Of a stretch of 33,439 nt of DNA, positions 12,399 through 24,975 are shown one piece after another. The notes beneath the pieces are model-generated. The model ran no database searches. It worked only from the letters and a program-made list of their open reading frames with translations, and was not told the DNA's origin. Made by a program: the position numbers and the translations under genes. The DNA is taken from the NCBI GenBank assembly GCA_903844665.1, contig CAIMUS010000204.1, positions 1-33,439 of the forward strand, read 5' to 3'. The stretch comes from an uncultured Pseudomonadota bacterium. GTDB taxonomy: Bacteria > Pseudomonadota > Gammaproteobacteria > Competibacterales > Competibacteraceae. How positions within the stretch are numbered: the first letter of the stretch is position 1; every line of letters begins with the position of its first letter.

Positions 12399-12459
12399 AG
12401 CGCGTAGGTTGGGGTGAGCGCGTAGGTTGGGGTGAGGAACGAACCCCAACCTACGCGCT
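12399..12459. repeat. Direct and inverted copies of a 17-bp repeat (REP/BIME-like)
   Basis: AGCGCGTAGGTTGGGGT occurs at 12399-12415 and again at 12417-12433. Its exact reverse complement is at 12443-12459, separated from the second copy by 9 bases. The unit lies 3 bases after the stop of the HEPN-like gene. Such CGTAGGTTGGG palindromes are common intergenic repeats in proteobacteria. It may act as a terminator or mRNA stabiliser, but that is inference. Confidence 0.75.
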
Positions 12460-12500
12460 ATTGTTATTATGAAATGTATAGCAAAGATCGGGACATACGC

Positions 12501-12713
12501 ATGTTGGCAATTCATCTACCCCCTGAAATTGAACAACGCCTTGAGCGTTTGGCCAAGCTTACCGGACGAACCAAGGCTTATTATGCTCGTGAGGCTATCC
12601 TGGAGCATCTAGAGGATTTGGAAGATACCTATCTAGCCGTTGAGCGCTTGCAGCATCCGGCCAAGCGTTGGACCCAGGATGAACTGGAGCAGGGACTTGA
12701 CCTGGACGATTGA
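12501..12713 (+). CDS. RelB/ribbon-helix-helix antitoxin
   Basis: A small protein of 70 aa. It begins MLAIHLPPEIEQRLERLAKLTGRTKAYYAREAI, the pattern of a ribbon-helix-helix DNA-binding domain (beta strand, then two helices). It ends in an acidic tail (DELEQGLDLDD) of the kind that wraps the toxin. The ATG at 12501 fits the family start; the frame is open upstream to 12432 but runs into the repeat. The antitoxin would neutralise the RelE-like toxin whose gene overlaps its 3-prime end by 17 bases. Antitoxins of this type usually repress their own promoter. Confidence 0.8.
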   Translation: MLAIHLPPEIEQRLERLAKLTGRTKAYYAREAILEHLEDLEDTYLAVERLQHPAKRWTQDELEQGLDLDD

Positions 12714-12972
12714 ATGGGATGATCGCGCGAGGCGGGAGTTGCGCCAACTTGATCACCAGGCCCAGCGAGAGATTCTGCGATTTTTTAGAGAGCGTATCGC
12801 TACCGATGAGGATCCGCAGAGGTTTGGTAAACCCCTGAAGCATGAATTGCAGGGCTTGTGGCGTTATCGGGTTGGCGCTTATCGCATGGTATGCCGTATC
12901 GAGGATAAGCGCTTGGTTGTTCTGGTATTGAGCGTCGGTCATCGTGGCACGATTTATCGCCAATCTCGCTAA
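12697..12972 (+). CDS. RelE/ParE-family toxin
   Basis: Predicted toxin of 91 aa. The sequence TWTIEWDDRARRELRQLD, then LQGLWRYRVGAYRMVCRIED and VLVLSVGHRGTIYR, is the standard RelE-superfamily pattern: an N-terminal beta strand and helices, then the conserved GLWRYRVGxYR core and the closing GHR...Y. A TTG at 12697 gives the family N-terminus and has GGAG/AGGG just upstream. An in-frame ATG at 12679 is the alternative. RelE-type members cut mRNA at the ribosome, while ParE-type members attack gyrase; sequence alone does not decide. It overlaps the antitoxin by 17 bases, so the two are translationally coupled. Confidence 0.8.
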   Translation: MTWTIEWDDRARRELRQLDHQAQREILRFFRERIATDEDPQRFGKPLKHELQGLWRYRVGAYRMVCRIEDKRLVVLVLSVGHRGTIYRQSR

Positions 12973-12973
12973 T

Positions 12974-13120
12974 TAGTGTCTGACCGAAAACCTCTGTTTA
13001 GCACCCTGTAGGAGCGAGCTTGCTCGCGAATCCAGCTAAATTGCCGCTGCACGTCCCTTTCGCGAGCAAGCTCGCTCCTACAGGGGGTAACCGGGTTTTG
13101 TAGTTTTCGGTCAGGCACTA
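12974..13120. mobile_element. 147-bp MITE-like element with nested palindrome
   Basis: The ends TAGTGTCTGACCGAAAAC (12974-12991) and GTTTTCGGTCAGGCACTA (13103-13120) are inverted repeats with one mismatch in 18. Inside is a perfect 26-bp inverted repeat (13005-13030 and 13059-13084) containing GTAGGAGCGAGCTTGCTCGCGAA. The element starts 2 bases after the toxin stop codon. TA at both outer edges is compatible with a TA target duplication as in Tc1/IS630-type elements, which is inference. It has no coding capacity. The inner palindrome recurs at 24902-24975. Confidence 0.7.
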
Positions 13121-13238: not shown

Positions 13239-13430
13239 TCACGATATCTCGAGCTCAGCAACTCTGCGAACGTTGGGAATGCTTCCGCTTGTCAGTTCTT
13301 TATAAATGTCGATTAAATTCTCCTTCAATTCCTCCTCCGTTTCTCCCTGTGTCCAGTAGTCTGGAAATTCTTCGAGGTGTCCCAACCACATGTCGTCGTC
13401 TTTCCAATAAATATACTTGCTTTTCACCAT
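13239..13430 (-). CDS. HicB-like antitoxin (partner hicA broken)
   Basis: A 63-aa protein with YIYWKDDDMWLGHLEEFPDYWTQGETEEELKENL, the partial RNase H-like fold typical of HicB. Strands are followed by a helix with the G-x-T-EEEL-x-N motif. It has no obvious C-terminal DNA-binding domain. AGGTGA precedes the ATG by 8 bases. The stop TGA (13239-13241) overlaps a GTG in a GTGA, as in many hicB-hicA operons. The frame from that GTG reads V-K-R like HicA but closes at 13222-13224 after six codons, and only a GYRIFERASNG-like stretch survives in another frame. The antitoxin therefore seems to have outlived its toxin. Confidence 0.65.
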   Translation of the reverse strand: MVKSKYIYWKDDDMWLGHLEEFPDYWTQGETEEELKENLIDIYKELTSGSIPNVRRVAELEIS

Positions 13431-13472: not shown

Positions 13473-13531
13473 CCCTAACGCTGGGCATGAGCCACGCGGT
13501 TTACCGCATCGGCTCCCTGCCCTCGTTAGGC
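13473..13531. other. attC-like recombination site (integron cassette site), 59 bp
   Basis: CCCTAAC (13473-13479) and GTTAGGC (13525-13531) form the ends of an imperfect hairpin. The inner arms GGGCATGAGCC and GGCTCCCTGCCC pair with small mismatches around a central segment. The GTTAGGC end fits the GTTRRRY core exactly; the other end differs from RYYYAAC by one base. Length and layout agree with integron attC sites. It lies upstream of the hicB-like gene (minus strand). The direction of the site cannot be fixed by eye. Confidence 0.5.
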
Positions 13532-13611
13532 TAGATAGCCAGATCGTTACTCAAAACTTGGTTTGTCCTCTATTTTCCCACTACCTGGCTTCACTTGCAG
13601 CCATTTCAGTG

Positions 13612-13700
13612 GTAGCCCGGATGTAGGCCAGAGGCCGGAATCCGGGATTCGAGAGTGGAACCCGGATTGCGCTTCGCAAGCTCCGCTCCATCCGGGCTAC
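13612..13700. repeat. 89-bp REP-like element with perfect 12-bp ends
   Basis: GTAGCCCGGATG (13612-13623) and CATCCGGGCTAC (13689-13700) are exact inverted repeats. The interior contains a second arm pair (GGAATCCGGGATTCG and GAACCCGGATTGCG). This is a familiar kind of intergenic palindrome in proteobacteria. It abuts the ABC ATPase gene fragment at 13703. A related copy lies at 16561-16592. Confidence 0.7.
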
Positions 13701-13702
13701 GC

Positions 13703-13803
13703 TGGCTGCTCGATGAACCGACCCAGGGGATGGGCCGCGAAGACGTGGAGCGCGTGACCGGGCTGATCGAGCGGGCGGCGGCTAACCGTACCGTGCTAAT
13801 GGA
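13703..13803 (+). pseudogene. Internal fragment of a LivG-type ABC transporter ATPase gene
   Basis: The frame from 13703 reads WLLDEPTQGMGREDVERVTGLIERAAANRTVLM. This is the Walker B region of branched-chain amino acid (LivG/LivF-like) ATPases: LLDEPTQGMG followed by a helix and a TVLM strand that should run on into VEHD/VEHN. Here the match stops after TVLM at about 13803. On the other side it is cut by a REP-like element. Only about 33 codons remain, on the opposite strand to the neighbouring methyltransferase. It is a stray piece brought in by rearrangement. Confidence 0.65.
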
Positions 13804-13817
13804 GCGATTTGTTAGCC
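13780..13817. other. Possible truncated attC end at the 3-prime side of the restriction-modification pair
   Basis: On the minus strand, directly after the methyltransferase stop, the DNA reads GGCTAACAAATCGCTC. This has the look of an attC inverse core and its adjoining arm. A matching GTTAGCC lies 24 bases further on (RC of 13780-13786), but the intervening sequence belongs to the ABC ATPase fragment. I read it as an attC cut by the rearrangement at about 13803. The 7-bp complementarity could also be chance. Confidence 0.25.
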
Positions 13818-13818
13818 G

Positions 13819-15054
13819 TTACTGCCACCTTGCCGAAACATCAAACTCGATCAGTTCTTTCTTTGAGTTGCGCTTGCGAATGGGCCTGATCTCGATGTCG
13901 GTAAAGCCCATCTCGGCCATGATGTGGACATATATCTTCTCGACTGACAAAAGCTCACCGTAGAAGGTCGAGTTGCCGACGATGTAGTGAAGCCGGGCCC
14001 GCGGCGCGAGGATAGCTCGCAGTTCCGCGAAGTGCTGCGCCATATCGACGCAATACTTTCGGATATAGGCGGCGAGTAGGGCACCGTTCGCGTTCTTGGG
14101 GCTCGCAACACGGGCAAGCGTTGCCTCCAATTCCTGGGATGTGTAAGCGTTCTCCTCGGGCTTCCAGTCGTTAAGGCGACTCGTCGCGACGCCCCAGGTC
14201 CCACCAATCGCGAGCCAGTCGAGTTCCCCGGCGTCGCGCCCGTTCACGAGGAAGCGCAGCCAGTACATATACGGGCGCAGTTCGCGAATGTAAGACATCC
14301 GGTTGGCGTAAGGGGGCGAGGTTACAACCAGATCGAATGGCTCGGTTGTGAGCTTCGAGAGCTTTCGCGCATCATGCAGGATAACCTTCGCCTCCCCTGT
14401 CGGATTTTCGAGGGCCCCCTTGAGAACGAAGGCGACGTTCTCGTGGAAGAGGCCGGCGTAATCCGTTCCTATATCGAGCTCGGGCTGCGGGTTATCCTTG
14501 AAGGACATAGATTGATGGTTAAAGGCCGCGTTCGAGCATGCGATCAGCGTGCGGCAGAACGCAATGCGCAAAAGCTTCCCCTCACCGGTTCCTGGTGGAA
14601 CGGTTTTGTCGATCGCGGCCTGTAGCCGGCAGAGGAAGGTGAGGGCGGCAGGCAGCCACCATCGCTCAATGTTGTGGATCGGCGGCGGCAACGCTGGCTC
14701 GACAATCTGCGCCTTGACCAACGCGAGTACTTCCACGCCCGCGTTTCGCGTCTGCATGACGGTGTCGGCTGAATAGTGGGCGGTCTTCGTCTGACCGAGC
14801 CAGACAAGAAATGCGTTGATGTCCGTGGTTGCGGCATCATGCCCGTGATAAGCAGCGCTCAGCGCCGTGGTGGCAGTACCGCAAAAGGGATCGAAAACGC
14901 GCAGATGGCCGTGGGTACGGTCCATCAGTTCTTCAACGATTTTCACCGAGTAGGCCGGCGTGAGGCGAAGCCAGCCATGCCGCCCGGTTGTTAGATTGTA
15001 CTTGTGAGTATAGTCCGCGCGTTGCCGGAGCTGATCGAAGGCAAGGTGTGTCAT
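13819..15054 (-). CDS. Type II DNA methyltransferase (beta-class, probably N4-cytosine)
   Basis: A 411-aa modification enzyme of a restriction-modification pair. The AdoMet-binding motif FDPFCGTATT is at 54-63 and the catalytic motif TSPPY at 245-249. TSPPY is typical of N4-cytosine (and some N6-adenine) beta-type enzymes. ANRMSYIRELRPYMYWLRFL follows the catalytic motif. A late NSTFYGELLSVEKIY segment resembles the C-terminal part of this class. The ATG at 15054 shares ATGA with the stop of the endonuclease gene upstream, so the two are translationally coupled. The methyltransferase is second in the operon. The recognition site cannot be read from sequence; similarity to M.CfrBI-type enzymes is suspected, not proved. 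Confidence 0.85.
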   Translation of the reverse strand: MTHLAFDQLRQRADYTHKYNLTTGRHGWLRLTPAYSVKIVEELMDRTHGHLRVFDPFCGTATTALSAAYHGHDAATTDINAFLVWLGQTKTAHYSADTVMQTRNAGVEVLALVKAQIVEPALPPPIHNIERWWLPAALTFLCRLQAAIDKTVPPGTGEGKLLRIAFCRTLIACSNAAFNHQSMSFKDNPQPELDIGTDYAGLFHENVAFVLKGALENPTGEAKVILHDARKLSKLTTEPFDLVVTSPPYANRMSYIRELRPYMYWLRFLVNGRDAGELDWLAIGGTWGVATSRLNDWKPEENAYTSQELEATLARVASPKNANGALLAAYIRKYCVDMAQHFAELRAILAPRARLHYIVGNSTFYGELLSVEKIYVHIMAEMGFTDIEIRPIRKRNSKKELIEFDVSARWQ

Positions 15055-15866
15055 CTGGCCTCCGGTGTCAGCAGGGACTGAAGAACCTTGTCGATCTCAT
15101 CGCGGAGGGTCTGCCGGTTGCGCTCGAAGAATCCCGCGAGGTCGTAGCCTACGATCTCGCGCGTGAAGTCGTAAGTCGAGCGGAGCGGATCATTTAGTCC
15201 GACCAAGCCGGTGAGCACCGACCACTTCTCGGCGCGGTATCGGACCAGGATATCGGAGTCGATTTGCGCGGAGAGAATGACCGCGCAAGGTAGATAGCTC
15301 TTAATGTAAGCGGTCGCAGCATTGGCGATATCCGCATTCTGGCGTTTCGAGTCCTTACTCTTGTAACCCTGGCGGACCTCGAAGATGGTTCCTGTAAGGG
15401 CGGCGAAGACGTTGGCTTCGACGCCGACGGTATCGGCTGATTCCTTCATCCAATCATGGAAGCGCTTGCGGGCTTGCTTATTCGGGATCTCGGCAAGTGG
15501 AACGCGGCCGTCGAGGTAAAGCGTGCGCTTCTTGCCATTCGTGCCTGTCACTTCATAGGACCAAGTGACGGCTTCGGATGACAACCCGAGTGAGTCTTGG
15601 AGAACATGCCGAAAGACGCGCTCGCAGCCAATGCCGATCTGGCGATAGATGCTCGTCATCCCTCCAGCGGCCCTGTGGGCAGCGTACATTAGCGGGTTGT
15701 CGAGGCCGAACCAGCTATAGAACGGATCCTTTTGGTACAGACCTTGAAACTGCTCAAGCGTGAGACCGGCACCCGCCCCTTGGCCGAACTTGGGTTTGTA
15801 CTTCGCACACACCCGGATCGGGTCCAAGATCACTTCGAGGTACTTGGCGTCGTTTTTTGACAACAA
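15051..15866 (-). CDS. Type II restriction endonuclease (possibly CfrBI-like)
   Basis: About 271 aa. It overlaps the methyltransferase start by 4 bases, which by itself argues for a cognate endonuclease. A possible PD-(D/E)xK nuclease core is GTIFEVRQGYKSKDSKRQNADIAN, where Glu and Lys of E-V-R-Q-G-Y-K could be catalytic. The N-terminal half has NDAKYLEVILDPIRVCAKYKPKFGQG and a MTSIYRQIGIGCERVFRHVL segment that I associate, with limited certainty, with CfrBI-type enzymes (site CCWWGG). AAGGAG stands 9 bases ahead of a TTG at 15866, so I prefer that start. The frame is open to a TTG at 15968, but that would lie inside the attC-like site. Confidence 0.6.
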   Translation of the reverse strand: MLSKNDAKYLEVILDPIRVCAKYKPKFGQGAGAGLTLEQFQGLYQKDPFYSWFGLDNPLMYAAHRAAGGMTSIYRQIGIGCERVFRHVLQDSLGLSSEAVTWSYEVTGTNGKKRTLYLDGRVPLAEIPNKQARKRFHDWMKESADTVGVEANVFAALTGTIFEVRQGYKSKDSKRQNADIANAATAYIKSYLPCAVILSAQIDSDILVRYRAEKWSVLTGLVGLNDPLRSTYDFTREIVGYDLAGFFERNRQTLRDEIDKVLQSLLTPEAR

Positions 15867-15936
15867 CTGCGTAGACTCCTTCGAGGAATTCCTGTCTTGC
15901 GTGTCGCGCAACACCGCACGTAGTAGCACCGGGTAT

Positions 15937-16014
15937 GACGGCTGACGTGCCGCATAACCGGCTGCCAACGAAGCGCAGCGTAGTTGGCAGTCCTAGTTGA
16001 TGCGATTGTTAGGC
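15937..16014 (-). other. attC-like recombination site between the DUF2442 gene and the restriction-modification pair
   Basis: Read on the minus strand it begins GCCTAAC (RYYYAAC consensus, 16014-16008). It contains a perfect inverted repeat CTGCCAAC (15990-15983) and GTTGGCAG (15969-15962), and continues GGTTATGCGGCAC to GTCAGCC, an imperfect core. GTTATGC (15958-15952) is an alternative core. The TAA stop of the DUF2442 gene lies inside GCCTAAC, the usual arrangement for a gene cassette. One core is degenerate, so the site may be inactive. Confidence 0.5.
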
Positions 16015-16281
16015 TGCTTGCCTGTGCAGACGACGCGCCGGCGAACCATGCAACATGCCTTCCACGCTAATGTCTTCGTCTATATCGGGCCAGTGGATGC
16101 CCTGACCATCGCCGAGAATTTCAAAATTCTGTCGCTGCTCTTCGGCGGCTTCCGACAAACGCCATGACCAGATCAGCGGAACACTGATTGTGCGCCCATC
16201 GATGAGATGAGCAATAATCTCATCTTCGGTAATTTCAGCATTCAACAGACGAGGTTCTACGACGTTAACCACAGTGTTCAT
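16009..16281 (-). CDS. DUF2442-family protein
   Basis: A 90-aa protein of the DUF2442 family. The hallmark is the stretch NAEITEDEIIAHLIDGRTISVPLIWSWRL (two beta strands and a W-R-L turn), then ARR near the end. DUF2442 genes are often paired with DUF4160 genes in a toxin-antitoxin-like arrangement, and here the DUF4160 frame overlaps its start by 17 bases upstream. The biochemical role is not known. The stop codon is within the attC-like site, which suggests the pair moved as a gene cassette. The ATG at 16281 lies within the end of the DUF4160 frame. Confidence 0.8.
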   Translation of the reverse strand: MNTVVNVVEPRLLNAEITEDEIIAHLIDGRTISVPLIWSWRLSEAAEEQRQNFEILGDGQGIHWPDIDEDISVEGMLHGSPARRLHRQAA

Positions 16282-16501
16282 GCCAAGCCTCCAATATGCT
16301 CGGTAAATGGGTTTCGATGAGTTTCCGAATGACGTTGAGTTCCTTTGGCGAAAAGCCGCTATTCTTGCCGAGATAAATCGGCTCCAGCCAAAATTTGCAA
16401 ATCAGTTTATCCCGTTGCACATGGACATGTTTCGGCTCGCCGCAATCGAAGCTGTAAAAGAAGAATCAATAAGGGCCGGGAATATTCTTGATGCTTGGCA
16501 T
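16265..16501 (-). pseudogene. DUF4160-family gene with an internal TGA stop
   Basis: From the ATG at 16501 the frame reads MPSIKNIPGPY, then TGA at 16466-16468, then FFFYSFDCGEPKHVHVQRDK. It continues to a TAA at 16265-16267 (79 codons in all). Family members have PGPYRFFFYS at this place, so one C-to-T change (CGA to TGA) explains the stop. The rest is intact, including GEPKHVHVQRD and the closing EAWHEHCG. Translation could restart only at weak internal sites, so the partner of DUF2442 is probably lost. A 65-aa reading frame on the plus strand over the same DNA is a shadow. Confidence 0.8.
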
Positions 16502-16560: not shown

Positions 16561-16622
16561 CCCGGATTCCGCGAAGCTTCATTCGGGCTACGCTTGCTTG
16601 TCGGGCACGCCCTGTGCCCGAC
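16561..16622. repeat. REP-like palindromes between the DUF4160 frame and the Sel1 gene
   Basis: CCCGGATTCCGCGAAGC followed by ATTCGGGCTACG (16561-16592) resembles the REP-like element at 13612-13700. Directly next to it, GTCGGGCAC (16600-16608) and GTGCCCGAC (16614-16622) form a 9-bp stem with a 5-base loop. The pair follows the Sel1 gene on the minus strand and could serve as its terminator. Confidence 0.55.
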
Positions 16623-20532: not shown

Positions 20533-20669
20533 GGCTGTTCCAGATTCGGTTCGATTGATAGGATGCAATTATAAGATTTTTGGATGCTGGAAGCTTAACC
20601 GTAGTAGCGGACAGACTGCTGGAGATCGCGCGGCCAGCCCTTATCAAACTGAATATCAGGTCGAAAAAA

Positions 20670-22385
20670 GTGAAGCAATTGTCGTTGCCCCTGCTGGATT
20701 TTTCAGAGGCTGGCAAGCACTCCGCCAACAGGAGCGTGGAAGAGCGCGGCGCGGTGTTTACCCGAAGCGAGATTGTCGAGTTCATTCTGGATCTCGTCGG
20801 ATACACCACCGATCGGCCTTTGTATGAGTTTCATATCCTGGAACCATCCTTCGGGGATGGAGACTTTTTATTGCCCGTCGTGGAGCGGTTGTTGACCGCC
20901 TATCAGGCGAACTCTCTGGATCGGTCCAACAGCATCGTCCAACTCGGCTCCTCGATCCGGGCTGTCGAGTTGCATCAGGAAAGTATCAAAAATACCCGCG
21001 CCAGGCTCCTGGCCCTGCTCCGGGCGCATGGCGTATCCGAGGATGACGCCCATCTTCTTCTTGATGCATGGATTATCGAGGGGGATTTCCTCTTGGTGGA
21101 GTTACCGGAGACATTTACGCATGCGGTGGGAAACCCGCCCTATGTGCGGCAGGAGCTTATCCCTGATATTCTCATGGCCGAGTACCGGGCACGCTACAGC
21201 ACAATTTATGATCGGGCGGATTTGTATGTCCCCTTCATCGAACGCTGTCTGCTCAGCCTTGAGCCGGAAGGCCTATTGGGGTTTATTTGCGCGGACCGGT
21301 GGATGAAGAATAAGTACGGCTCACCACTCCGGGAAATGATTGCAGACCGTTATCATTTGGCCTACTACGTCGATATGGTGGGCACGCCCGCATTCCACTC
21401 CGAAGTGATGGCGTATCCCGCTATCACCGTCATCAAGCGTGGTAAATCAGGACCCACGCGGATTGCACACCGCCCTCAGATTGACCGCAACACGCTGGCG
21501 AAACTCGCTCAGACTCTGCGCGCCAGCGCTATTCCGCAGGGAAGCAGTGTTGTAGAAGTGACCGGCATCGCCAAGGGTAACGAACCCTGGATACTGCAAT
21601 CCTTCGATCAGTTGGCCGTAGTGCGGCGTCTTGAAAAGGATTACCCCGTTTTGGAGGATGCCGGTTGCAGGGTCGGAATCGGGGTCGCCACCGGAGCCGA
21701 TAAAGTGTTTATAGGCCCATTCAATAGCTTGGATGTAGAAGAGGATCGTAAGTTGCCGCTGGTCATGACCAGGGATATCGTGGATGGAACTGTGCAATGG
21801 CAGGGTCTTGGAGTAATTAACCCGTTCCACAATGATGGCTCTCTGGTTGAACTCTCGGCTTACCCGAAGCTCGCACGCTACTTGAAGGAACATGCCGACA
21901 TGATTCGCCAGCGGAACTGTGCAAAGAAAAATCCGATGGCTTGGTATCGGACCATCGACCGAATCTATCCGGATCTGGTATATCGCCCCAAGTTACTCAT
22001 CCCCGATATCAAAGGCGAAGCCCATATCGTTTACGAAGACGGTCACTTTTACCCACATCATAATCTGTATTTCATTACCTCCGAGGAATGGGATGTAATA
22101 GCCCTGCAAGCAGTGCTCCGATCAGGCATTGCAAAGCTCTTCGTATCGATCTACTCGACCCGGATGCGTGGAGGTTATCTTCGTTTCCAGGCTCAATATC
22201 TGCGGCGAATCAGGCTCCCCCGCTGGCAGGATGTTCCCAAGACTATCCAAAAAGCTCTCGTAGACGCAGCCAAGGTGGGAAACCTAGAGGCATGCAATCA
22301 TGCGGTATCCGACTTGTATCGGTTGACTCCCGAGGAAAAGGCGGCGATAGGAGGCAACAATAGCGAGGATTGGCAGCTCGCGTAG
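20670..22385 (+). CDS. Eco57I-like N6-adenine DNA methyltransferase (no partner endonuclease visible)
   Basis: A gamma-type DNA methyltransferase of about 571 aa. The AdoMet motif [15 protein letters not shown] is at about 56-70 and the catalytic NPPY motif, in [13 protein letters not shown], at about 155-158. An [13 protein letters not shown]...[13 protein letters not shown] segment follows. The C-terminal ~280 residues form the target recognition part ([30 protein letters not shown]) known from Eco57I/PstI-group enzymes. I prefer the GTG at 20670 ([11 protein letters not shown]); the frame is open to a TTG at 20580. No endonuclease gene adjoins it: divergent small genes lie upstream and 441 bases without a gene lie downstream. 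It may be an orphan methylase or a fused type IIG relative. Confidence 0.8.
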
Positions 22386-24668: not shown

Positions 24669-24867
24669 TGAAATTGTTGATGAGATTCACTCCATTCGTC
24701 AACAACATGCCACCCGCTTCGATTTCGACATTGATCGTATCATCGACGATCTGCGCGTCGGCCAGGAAAAGCATGCTGCCGAGGGTTGGCCCTTGCGCAA
24801 AGCCTCGGACACACCGCCGATCAATCCTAACTCTGCATTGCAGCGGACTCGCTTCGCTCGCCGCTGA
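24652..24867 (+). CDS. Small protein, former partner of the PIN-domain gene; its tail is encoded by an attC-like site
   Basis: 71 aa, starting MTRLTDEIVDEIHSIRQQHATRFDFDIDRIIDDLRVGQEKHAAEGWPL. I recognise no named domain. Helical proteins like this follow PIN-domain genes and may be their antitoxin; the 17-base overlap with the PIN fragment supports the pairing. The last residues NSALQRTRFARR are encoded by the attC-like site at 24825-24882 and the stop is inside it. That is typical of cassette genes whose frame runs into the recombination site. Confidence 0.6.
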   Translation: MTRLTDEIVDEIHSIRQQHATRFDFDIDRIIDDLRVGQEKHAAEGWPLRKASDTPPINPNSALQRTRFARR

Positions 24868-24882
24868 ATATTCATGTTAAAC
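24825..24882 (+). other. attC-like integron recombination site, 58 bp
   Basis: TCCTAAC at 24825-24831 is one base from RYYYAAC. GTTAAAC at 24876-24882 fits GTTRRRY exactly. Between them GCAGCGG and CCGCTG form the arm pair, around the central palindrome CGAGCGAAGCGAG (plus-strand reading CTCGCTTCGCTCG). The length is within the usual attC range and the site lies at the 3-prime end of a small plus-strand gene. It is the best-formed attC-like site in the window. No integrase gene is nearby. Confidence 0.7.
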
Positions 24883-24900
24883 CTCCAATTTCATGGTGCC

Positions 24901-24975
24901 TGTAGGAGCGAGCTTGCTCGCGAACATCGCCGGTTTACCGGCGACCGCTGCATTCGCGAGCAAGCTCGCTCCTAC
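24901..24975. repeat. Palindrome related to the core of the 12974-13120 element
   Basis: GTAGGAGCGAGCTTGCTCGCGAA (24902-24924) and its exact reverse complement (24953-24975) frame a 28-base centre, itself partly symmetrical (CGCCGGTTTACCGGCG). The arms are identical to the inner palindrome at 13005-13084, but the outer TAGTG...CACTA ends are missing here. Confidence 0.75.

Follow-up and report, generated by a model that had tools for sequence, protein, structure and literature searches.

Is the short interval between a DUF4160-DUF2442 gene pair and a type II restriction-modification (R-M) pair a genuine integron recombination site (attC), and how did the two gene units come to be joined there? 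The interval lies on the minus strand of contig C204, in the 33,439-nt stretch analysed here (hereafter the window). The features concerned are:

16265-16501, minus strand: DUF4160 gene, interrupted at codon 12 by an in-frame TGA; it overlaps the DUF2442 start
16009-16281, minus strand: DUF2442 gene (90 aa; PF10387, E 6.5e-20)
15940-16014, minus strand: attC site of the DUF4160-DUF2442 cassette (75 nt; covariance models R1 and R2, and fold)
16008-16014, minus strand: R'' box GCCTAAC, in which TAA 16011-16009 is the DUF2442 stop
15996-16004, minus strand: L'' box CGCATCAAC, with C 15999 unpaired (the bulged G of the bottom strand)
15959-15995, minus strand: variable terminal structure with the CTGCCAAC/GTTGGCAG stem, A 15991 being unpaired; stem changes are compensated in homologues
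15951-15958, minus strand: L' box GTTATGCG (fold and box reading)
15940-15946, minus strand: R' box GTCAGCC, its G15946 read as part of the DUF2442 cassette and its TCAGCC as part of the R-M cassette
15051-15968, minus strand: type II restriction endonuclease ORF (PADLOC REase_II, E 1.8e-85)
13819-15054, minus strand: type II DNA methyltransferase (411 aa; PADLOC MTase_II, E 1.7e-22; N6_N4_Mtase and UPF0020), which overlaps the endonuclease stop

Read on the minus strand from 16014 to 15940, the site is made of GCCTAAC, an AAT spacer, CGCATCAAC, the stem-loop, GTTATGCG, a GCAC spacer and GTCAGCC, with the stem arms at 15990-15983 and 15969-15962. An earlier note, based on the letters of the sequence, had placed an attC-like site at 15937-16014, with the stop codon of the DUF2442 gene (ORF 16281-16009) inside the inverse core, a stem behind it and the R-M pair following. 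All three elements are where it put them and the 16014 end is correct; the other end had to be moved from 15937 to 15940. For the degenerate second core, two candidates had been given: GTCAGCC is indeed the R' box, while GTTATGC, which sits in the L' box (15958-15951), was ruled out as a core since it base-pairs within L''/L'.

When the bottom strand was folded as single-stranded DNA, a free energy of -16.7 kcal/mol was obtained (z -2.52; 3 of 200 shuffles as good), versus -14.1 kcal/mol for the top strand (z -1.82; 12 of 200). In the bottom-strand fold the R boxes are paired, the central spacer is unpaired, the L boxes are paired and a single G is extrahelical in L''. Such an extrahelical base is diagnostic of attC sites according to the fold criteria set out in PMC2727003 (in excerpt), and the span of 15940-16014 falls within the 57-142 nt length criterion of the same excerpt. 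Boxes, spacers, the bulged G in L'', the stop in R'' and the better folding of the bottom strand are all as in the attC sites of chromosomal integrons (R''-L''-VTS-L'-R'). The R'' box at 16014-16008 satisfies the RYYYAAC form; the difference is in R', where GTCAGCC violates the GTTRRRY form at its third and sixth bases.

Part of the evidence would also suit a chance or unrelated inverted repeat, for instance a terminator or a REP-like element between two genes. The heptamer GCCTAAC is by itself at chance level in the window (4 occurrences versus 2.73 expected, with 28 of 100 shuffles giving at least 4), and REP-like inverted repeats are found elsewhere in the window. The generic covariance model R1, built from 15 attC sites (14 taken from intI-bearing loci in five relatives, the fifteenth from another place in this genome), gave 15940-16014 only 14.9 bits (E 0.13). 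A scan of the window against Rfam returned no family at the gathering cut-off, and pattern scans of the form RYYYAAC...GTTRRRY, in which GTT is demanded in R', did not list the site; they did pick up 13473-13531 and 24825-24882. The subfamily covariance model R2, from which the target was left out, gave a different result: built from only six sites (five in relatives and one on contig C19 of this genome), it matched 15940-16014 with 72.6 bits (E 1.1e-15, which like the E-values of R1 is a rough figure according to the tool itself), the next match within the window being at 17.8 bits. Over the whole genome its top two matches were the C19 site (72.9 bits), whose first 19 bases are identical to those of 15940-16014, and 15940-16014 itself; the next was at 42.6 bits. 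The covariance search that the earlier note had suggested as a check, together with the bottom-strand fold, therefore bears out its attC-like site, and in practice the R2 score refutes a chance repeat.

Homologues of the site in relatives point the same way. A DNA search with the site listed 25 of 115 genomes at E <=0.1: three homologues were 82% identical over 71 nt (G020), 81% over 70 nt (G015) and 77% over 65 nt (G040), two were weaker (G033 and G082), another genome (G005) had the left half only (94% over 34 nt), and the other matches were mostly short and weak. The homologues lie behind different genes; their stems are compensated, GTTAGGC is intact and stop codons fall in R''. In five of the eight sites of this type (target counted) the reading frame upstream ends at one and the same position of that box. 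On the contigs that carry the G033 and G015 homologues (C345 and C278) there is in each case an intI above the cut-off, that of C278 having one internal stop in its frame. When the target was aligned with five of its homologues (the structure was derived from the same sequences and is thereby favoured), standard pairs filled 88.5% of the pair cells, a share that 0 of 500 shuffles reached (81.7% in shuffles); 8 pairs were changed on both sides versus 3.0 (0 of 500), and the covariation score was reached by 1 of 500 shuffles; the number of further pair types was ordinary (167 of 500). Since, in addition, R' is directly followed by a base of an R-M unit whose ends are constant (see below), we consider a chance or unrelated repeat extremely improbable: 15940-16014 is a genuine integron recombination site.

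The nature of the unit on the other side of R' was approached through its homologues, i.e. 21 loci, 20 of them distinct (L092 and L103 are one contig), four of which came from a search of 274 genomes with five matching, this one included. They are found in MAGs labelled Desulfarculus, Nitrospira, Chlorobium, Competibacteraceae, Lysobacteraceae, Chloroflexi, Thermogutta and others, the nuclease being 69-81% identical in 15 of the loci, where the match covers either most of its length or 184 residues. Similarity to relatives begins near residue 36 of the ORF, and the true start of the endonuclease is probably TTG 15866, behind GAAGGAG. Many of the loci start with TTAGCCGT and have CGGCTAAC at the methylase stop; in the window, too, CGGCTAAC follows that stop. 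The motif GTTAGCCGT, which was picked after inspection of the loci and scored over at most 200 bases preceding the nuclease alignment, was present with at most one mismatch in 12 of the 20 distinct loci, 11-71 nt ahead of the aligned part (exact in L100, L101, L102, L104, L105, L109 and L111; one mismatch in L096, L098, L106, L107 and L112). The eight others were without a clear copy (two mismatches, which is chance level, in two loci and at least three in six). GGCTAAC was found at the methylase stop in 5 of the 15 distinct loci that have the methylase, and a whole attC begins there in L101, L102, L105 and L107 (by R1) and in L098 (by R2; R1 gave only 14.9 bits). In L102 the pair is flanked by attCs on both sides, and in L111 an attC lies just upstream of the nuclease fragment. 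At the same place as the intact attCs behind the methylase of L098, L101, L102, L105 and L107, the window has:

13780-13817, minus strand: remnant of the R-M cassette's own attC, with GGCTAAC and the left arm, the hairpin mostly gone, then GTTAGCC (R1 13.8 bits, E 0.25)

With its constant 5' end and the attC at the methylase stop across loci, the R-M pair is a gene cassette with ends TTAGCCG and CGGCTAAC and with varying neighbours.

The comparison with these loci makes the seam readable base by base: a single base belongs to the left cassette and all others to the right one. In G|TCAGCCGT, as the seam reads, everything behind G15946 corresponds to the 5' end of the R-M cassette, apart from a T-to-C at its second base. 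Because TCAGCCGT matches the R-M cassette 5' ends of other loci, R' reads as a mosaic to which both cassettes contribute, with one T-to-C change added and a crossover that would lie between 15946 and 15945; strand exchange at G|TT produces just such a mosaic. The third-base deviation of R' is then a substitution in the neighbour's TTAGCC end, and the sixth-base deviation is the neighbour cassette's own sequence. Decay of R' by two substitutions was rejected on this comparison in favour of mosaic plus one, so that the degeneracy reported in the earlier note is real and simple decay is not its source: the box ends in six bases that the adjoining cassette contributes from its 5' end, one of them substituted.

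A genuine attC could still have had the R-M pair placed alongside by other means, i.e. an insertion or deletion, in which case the seam would not be an integrase product. The departure of R' from GTTRRRY could be taken that way, as could the damaged attC of the methylase and the apparent ABC-transporter gene fragment (identified by eye) that follows it. Set against this, the sequence after G15946 is the very R-M 5' end that stands behind unrelated sequence in other phyla, one substitution apart, and a random join would not hit that base; such a joint is thus very unlikely in our judgement. An empty site was sought via the neighbouring Band 7 gene, for which no homologue was found at E 1e-30 in 39 other genomes. 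On this evidence we hold with high confidence that 15940-16014 is the attC of the DUF4160-DUF2442 cassette and that its R' is the seam where an integron integrase joined the R-M cassette.

In the DUF4160-DUF2442 cassette, the portion of DUF4160 past the TGA matches PF13711 (E 1.8e-15), and annotation suggests a toxin-antitoxin action for the pair. This genome has 18 DUF2442-family genes; a same-orientation attC directly follows a gene of this family in 5 of 44 loci (by R1), three of them here (C336, C111 and C269) and the others in G011 and G010. A DUF2442 gene was also seen convergent right behind one intI 3' end of this genome (L018, 227-499), with an attC-like, incomplete end GCCCAACAAGCGCATGCAG. 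The closest homologues of the window's DUF2442 (64% identity in G163 and below) have no matching attC adjoining among the 28 relatives' loci run with the models. The expectation of the earlier note that the same two-gene unit would be found elsewhere with the same attC was not borne out: homologues occur in 27 of 190 genomes, and no such arrangement was found in the 23 loci read (18 from the 190-genome search; five were own or repeated places). The attC type of 15940-16014 does occur elsewhere, beside other genes. Conserved synteny of DUF2442 with the restriction genes, which the earlier note had named as an argument against an attC, was absent too, as tblastn found DUF2442 in none of the 21 R-M loci (the upstream flank is below 1 kb in L102, L104 and L105). 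With no DUF2442 at the R-M loci and no matching site at the closest DUF2442 homologues, the two cassettes meet here by assortment.

Three further features of the window belong to the same picture:

13473-13531, minus strand: second attC with intact boxes, in the same orientation as 15940-16014 (R1 28.2 bits, E 8.1e-5)
13239-13430, minus strand: small HicB-like ORF after the second attC (UPF0150, E 3.7e-5, below the Pfam cut-off), possibly a further cassette
24825-24882, plus strand: third attC, isolated and in the opposite orientation (R1 37.1 bits, E 5.8e-7)

The bottom strand of 24825-24882 folds no better than shuffles (z -0.79). No integrase was found on contig C204, on which no PF00589 (tyrosine recombinase) match was obtained. 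With two attCs (13473-13531 and 15940-16014) and one remnant within 2.6 kb (13473-16014) on a contig without integrase, the window has the make-up of a CALIN, i.e. two or more attCs and no intI nearby; it differs in that only one of the two attCs passes the generic model at E <0.01, and the assembly is fragmented.

In the genome as a whole, R1 at E <=0.0067 gave at least 104 distinct attC places on 51 contigs, a lower bound, because scoring covered only 150 of 3,959 candidates and 13473-13531 does not figure in that list. These places fall into 55 clusters (4-kb cut), 32 of them single. At E <=0.001 there were at least 98 attCs in this genome versus 0 to 24 in 23 family members by the same search. 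Since arrays break draft assemblies and fragmentation inflates CALIN counts (PMC9024848, in excerpt), some of the single attCs may be pieces of arrays. It is tempting to view the hundred or so attCs in 55 or more places as cassettes scattered over the chromosome by repeated insertion at non-attI sites, the R-M cassette being one such insertion, a tentative reading to which we give slightly less than even weight. The attC density of this genome makes it a natural case for how cassettes land outside arrays. As for the integrase, two intI 3' ends (L017 1-211 and L018 1-211, on contigs C253 and C254) agree at the contig edges over about 141 bases, beyond which they diverge; this implies at least two intI copies in this genome; no complete intI was found in the assembly, in which these incomplete 3' ends lie at contig edges and the 5' parts are absent from the matches.

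An integrase of this lineage would have made the DUF2442/R-M joint. The joint would now be little mobile, and the whole an old, largely immobile integron remnant, because R' has a T-to-C at its third base, the hairpin of the R-M attC is mostly lost, DUF4160 is interrupted and the contig has no integrase. The site might instead be still fully active, the change in R' being tolerated: hairpin, bulged G and spacers are intact, and on the bottom strand R' still ends in A-C, the place of exchange (PMC2727003, in excerpt). We regard this as unlikely in view of the lack of a complete intI in the assembly matches and of the GTT of R', which is invariant in the 15 training sites of R1 and present in each of the 30 attCs that score best in this genome (a selection that favours high scores). 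Should the R-M pair be expressed, it would restrict foreign DNA, and the addictive effect of such pairs would help to keep the array.

Integron attC sites, CALINs and R-M cassettes are all already known. XbaI and HphI are examples of R-M systems carried as integron cassettes. The present case is similar in that a complete type II pair lies between attC sites and is spread across phyla; it differs in its endonuclease family, for which no relevant match was found among solved structures (best E 0.81). Its methylase likewise had no match there at E 0.01. The analysis identifies a type II R-M family whose members, several of them integron cassettes, are found in MAGs that carry the labels of several phyla. 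In the excerpts consulted, R-M genes are reported to move in integrons (PMC4176335), toxin-antitoxin and restriction functions to be common among cassettes (PMC9668308), and integrons to be cited as defence libraries, with a mention of insertion at attG sites (PMC12444791); an R-M family as integron cassette fits this current work on integrons as phage-defence stores. The DUF4160-DUF2442 cassette is, as a small two-gene unit with its own attC, like the integron toxin-antitoxin cassettes of PMC9668308 (in excerpt), and unlike them in that DUF4160 is interrupted and the action of the pair is suggested by annotation. No discussion of this R-M family or of this genome was found within the literature searched.

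A few other elements were seen in the window. Past the attC remnant of the methylase, 13640-13800 holds, on visual inspection, part of what would be a gene for an ABC-transporter ATPase and, behind it, a repeat that recurs at 16576-16603. REP-like inverted-repeat elements GTAGGAGCGAGCTTGCTCGCGAA lie at 13004-13085 and 24899-24975, the latter adjoining the isolated attC (24825-24882). A TraY/ribbon-helix-helix and ParE-like pair, likely a toxin-antitoxin module, occupies 12432-12972, and a second, unrelated large DNA methyltransferase is found at 20580-22385 (PADLOC MTase_II, E 7.1e-254).
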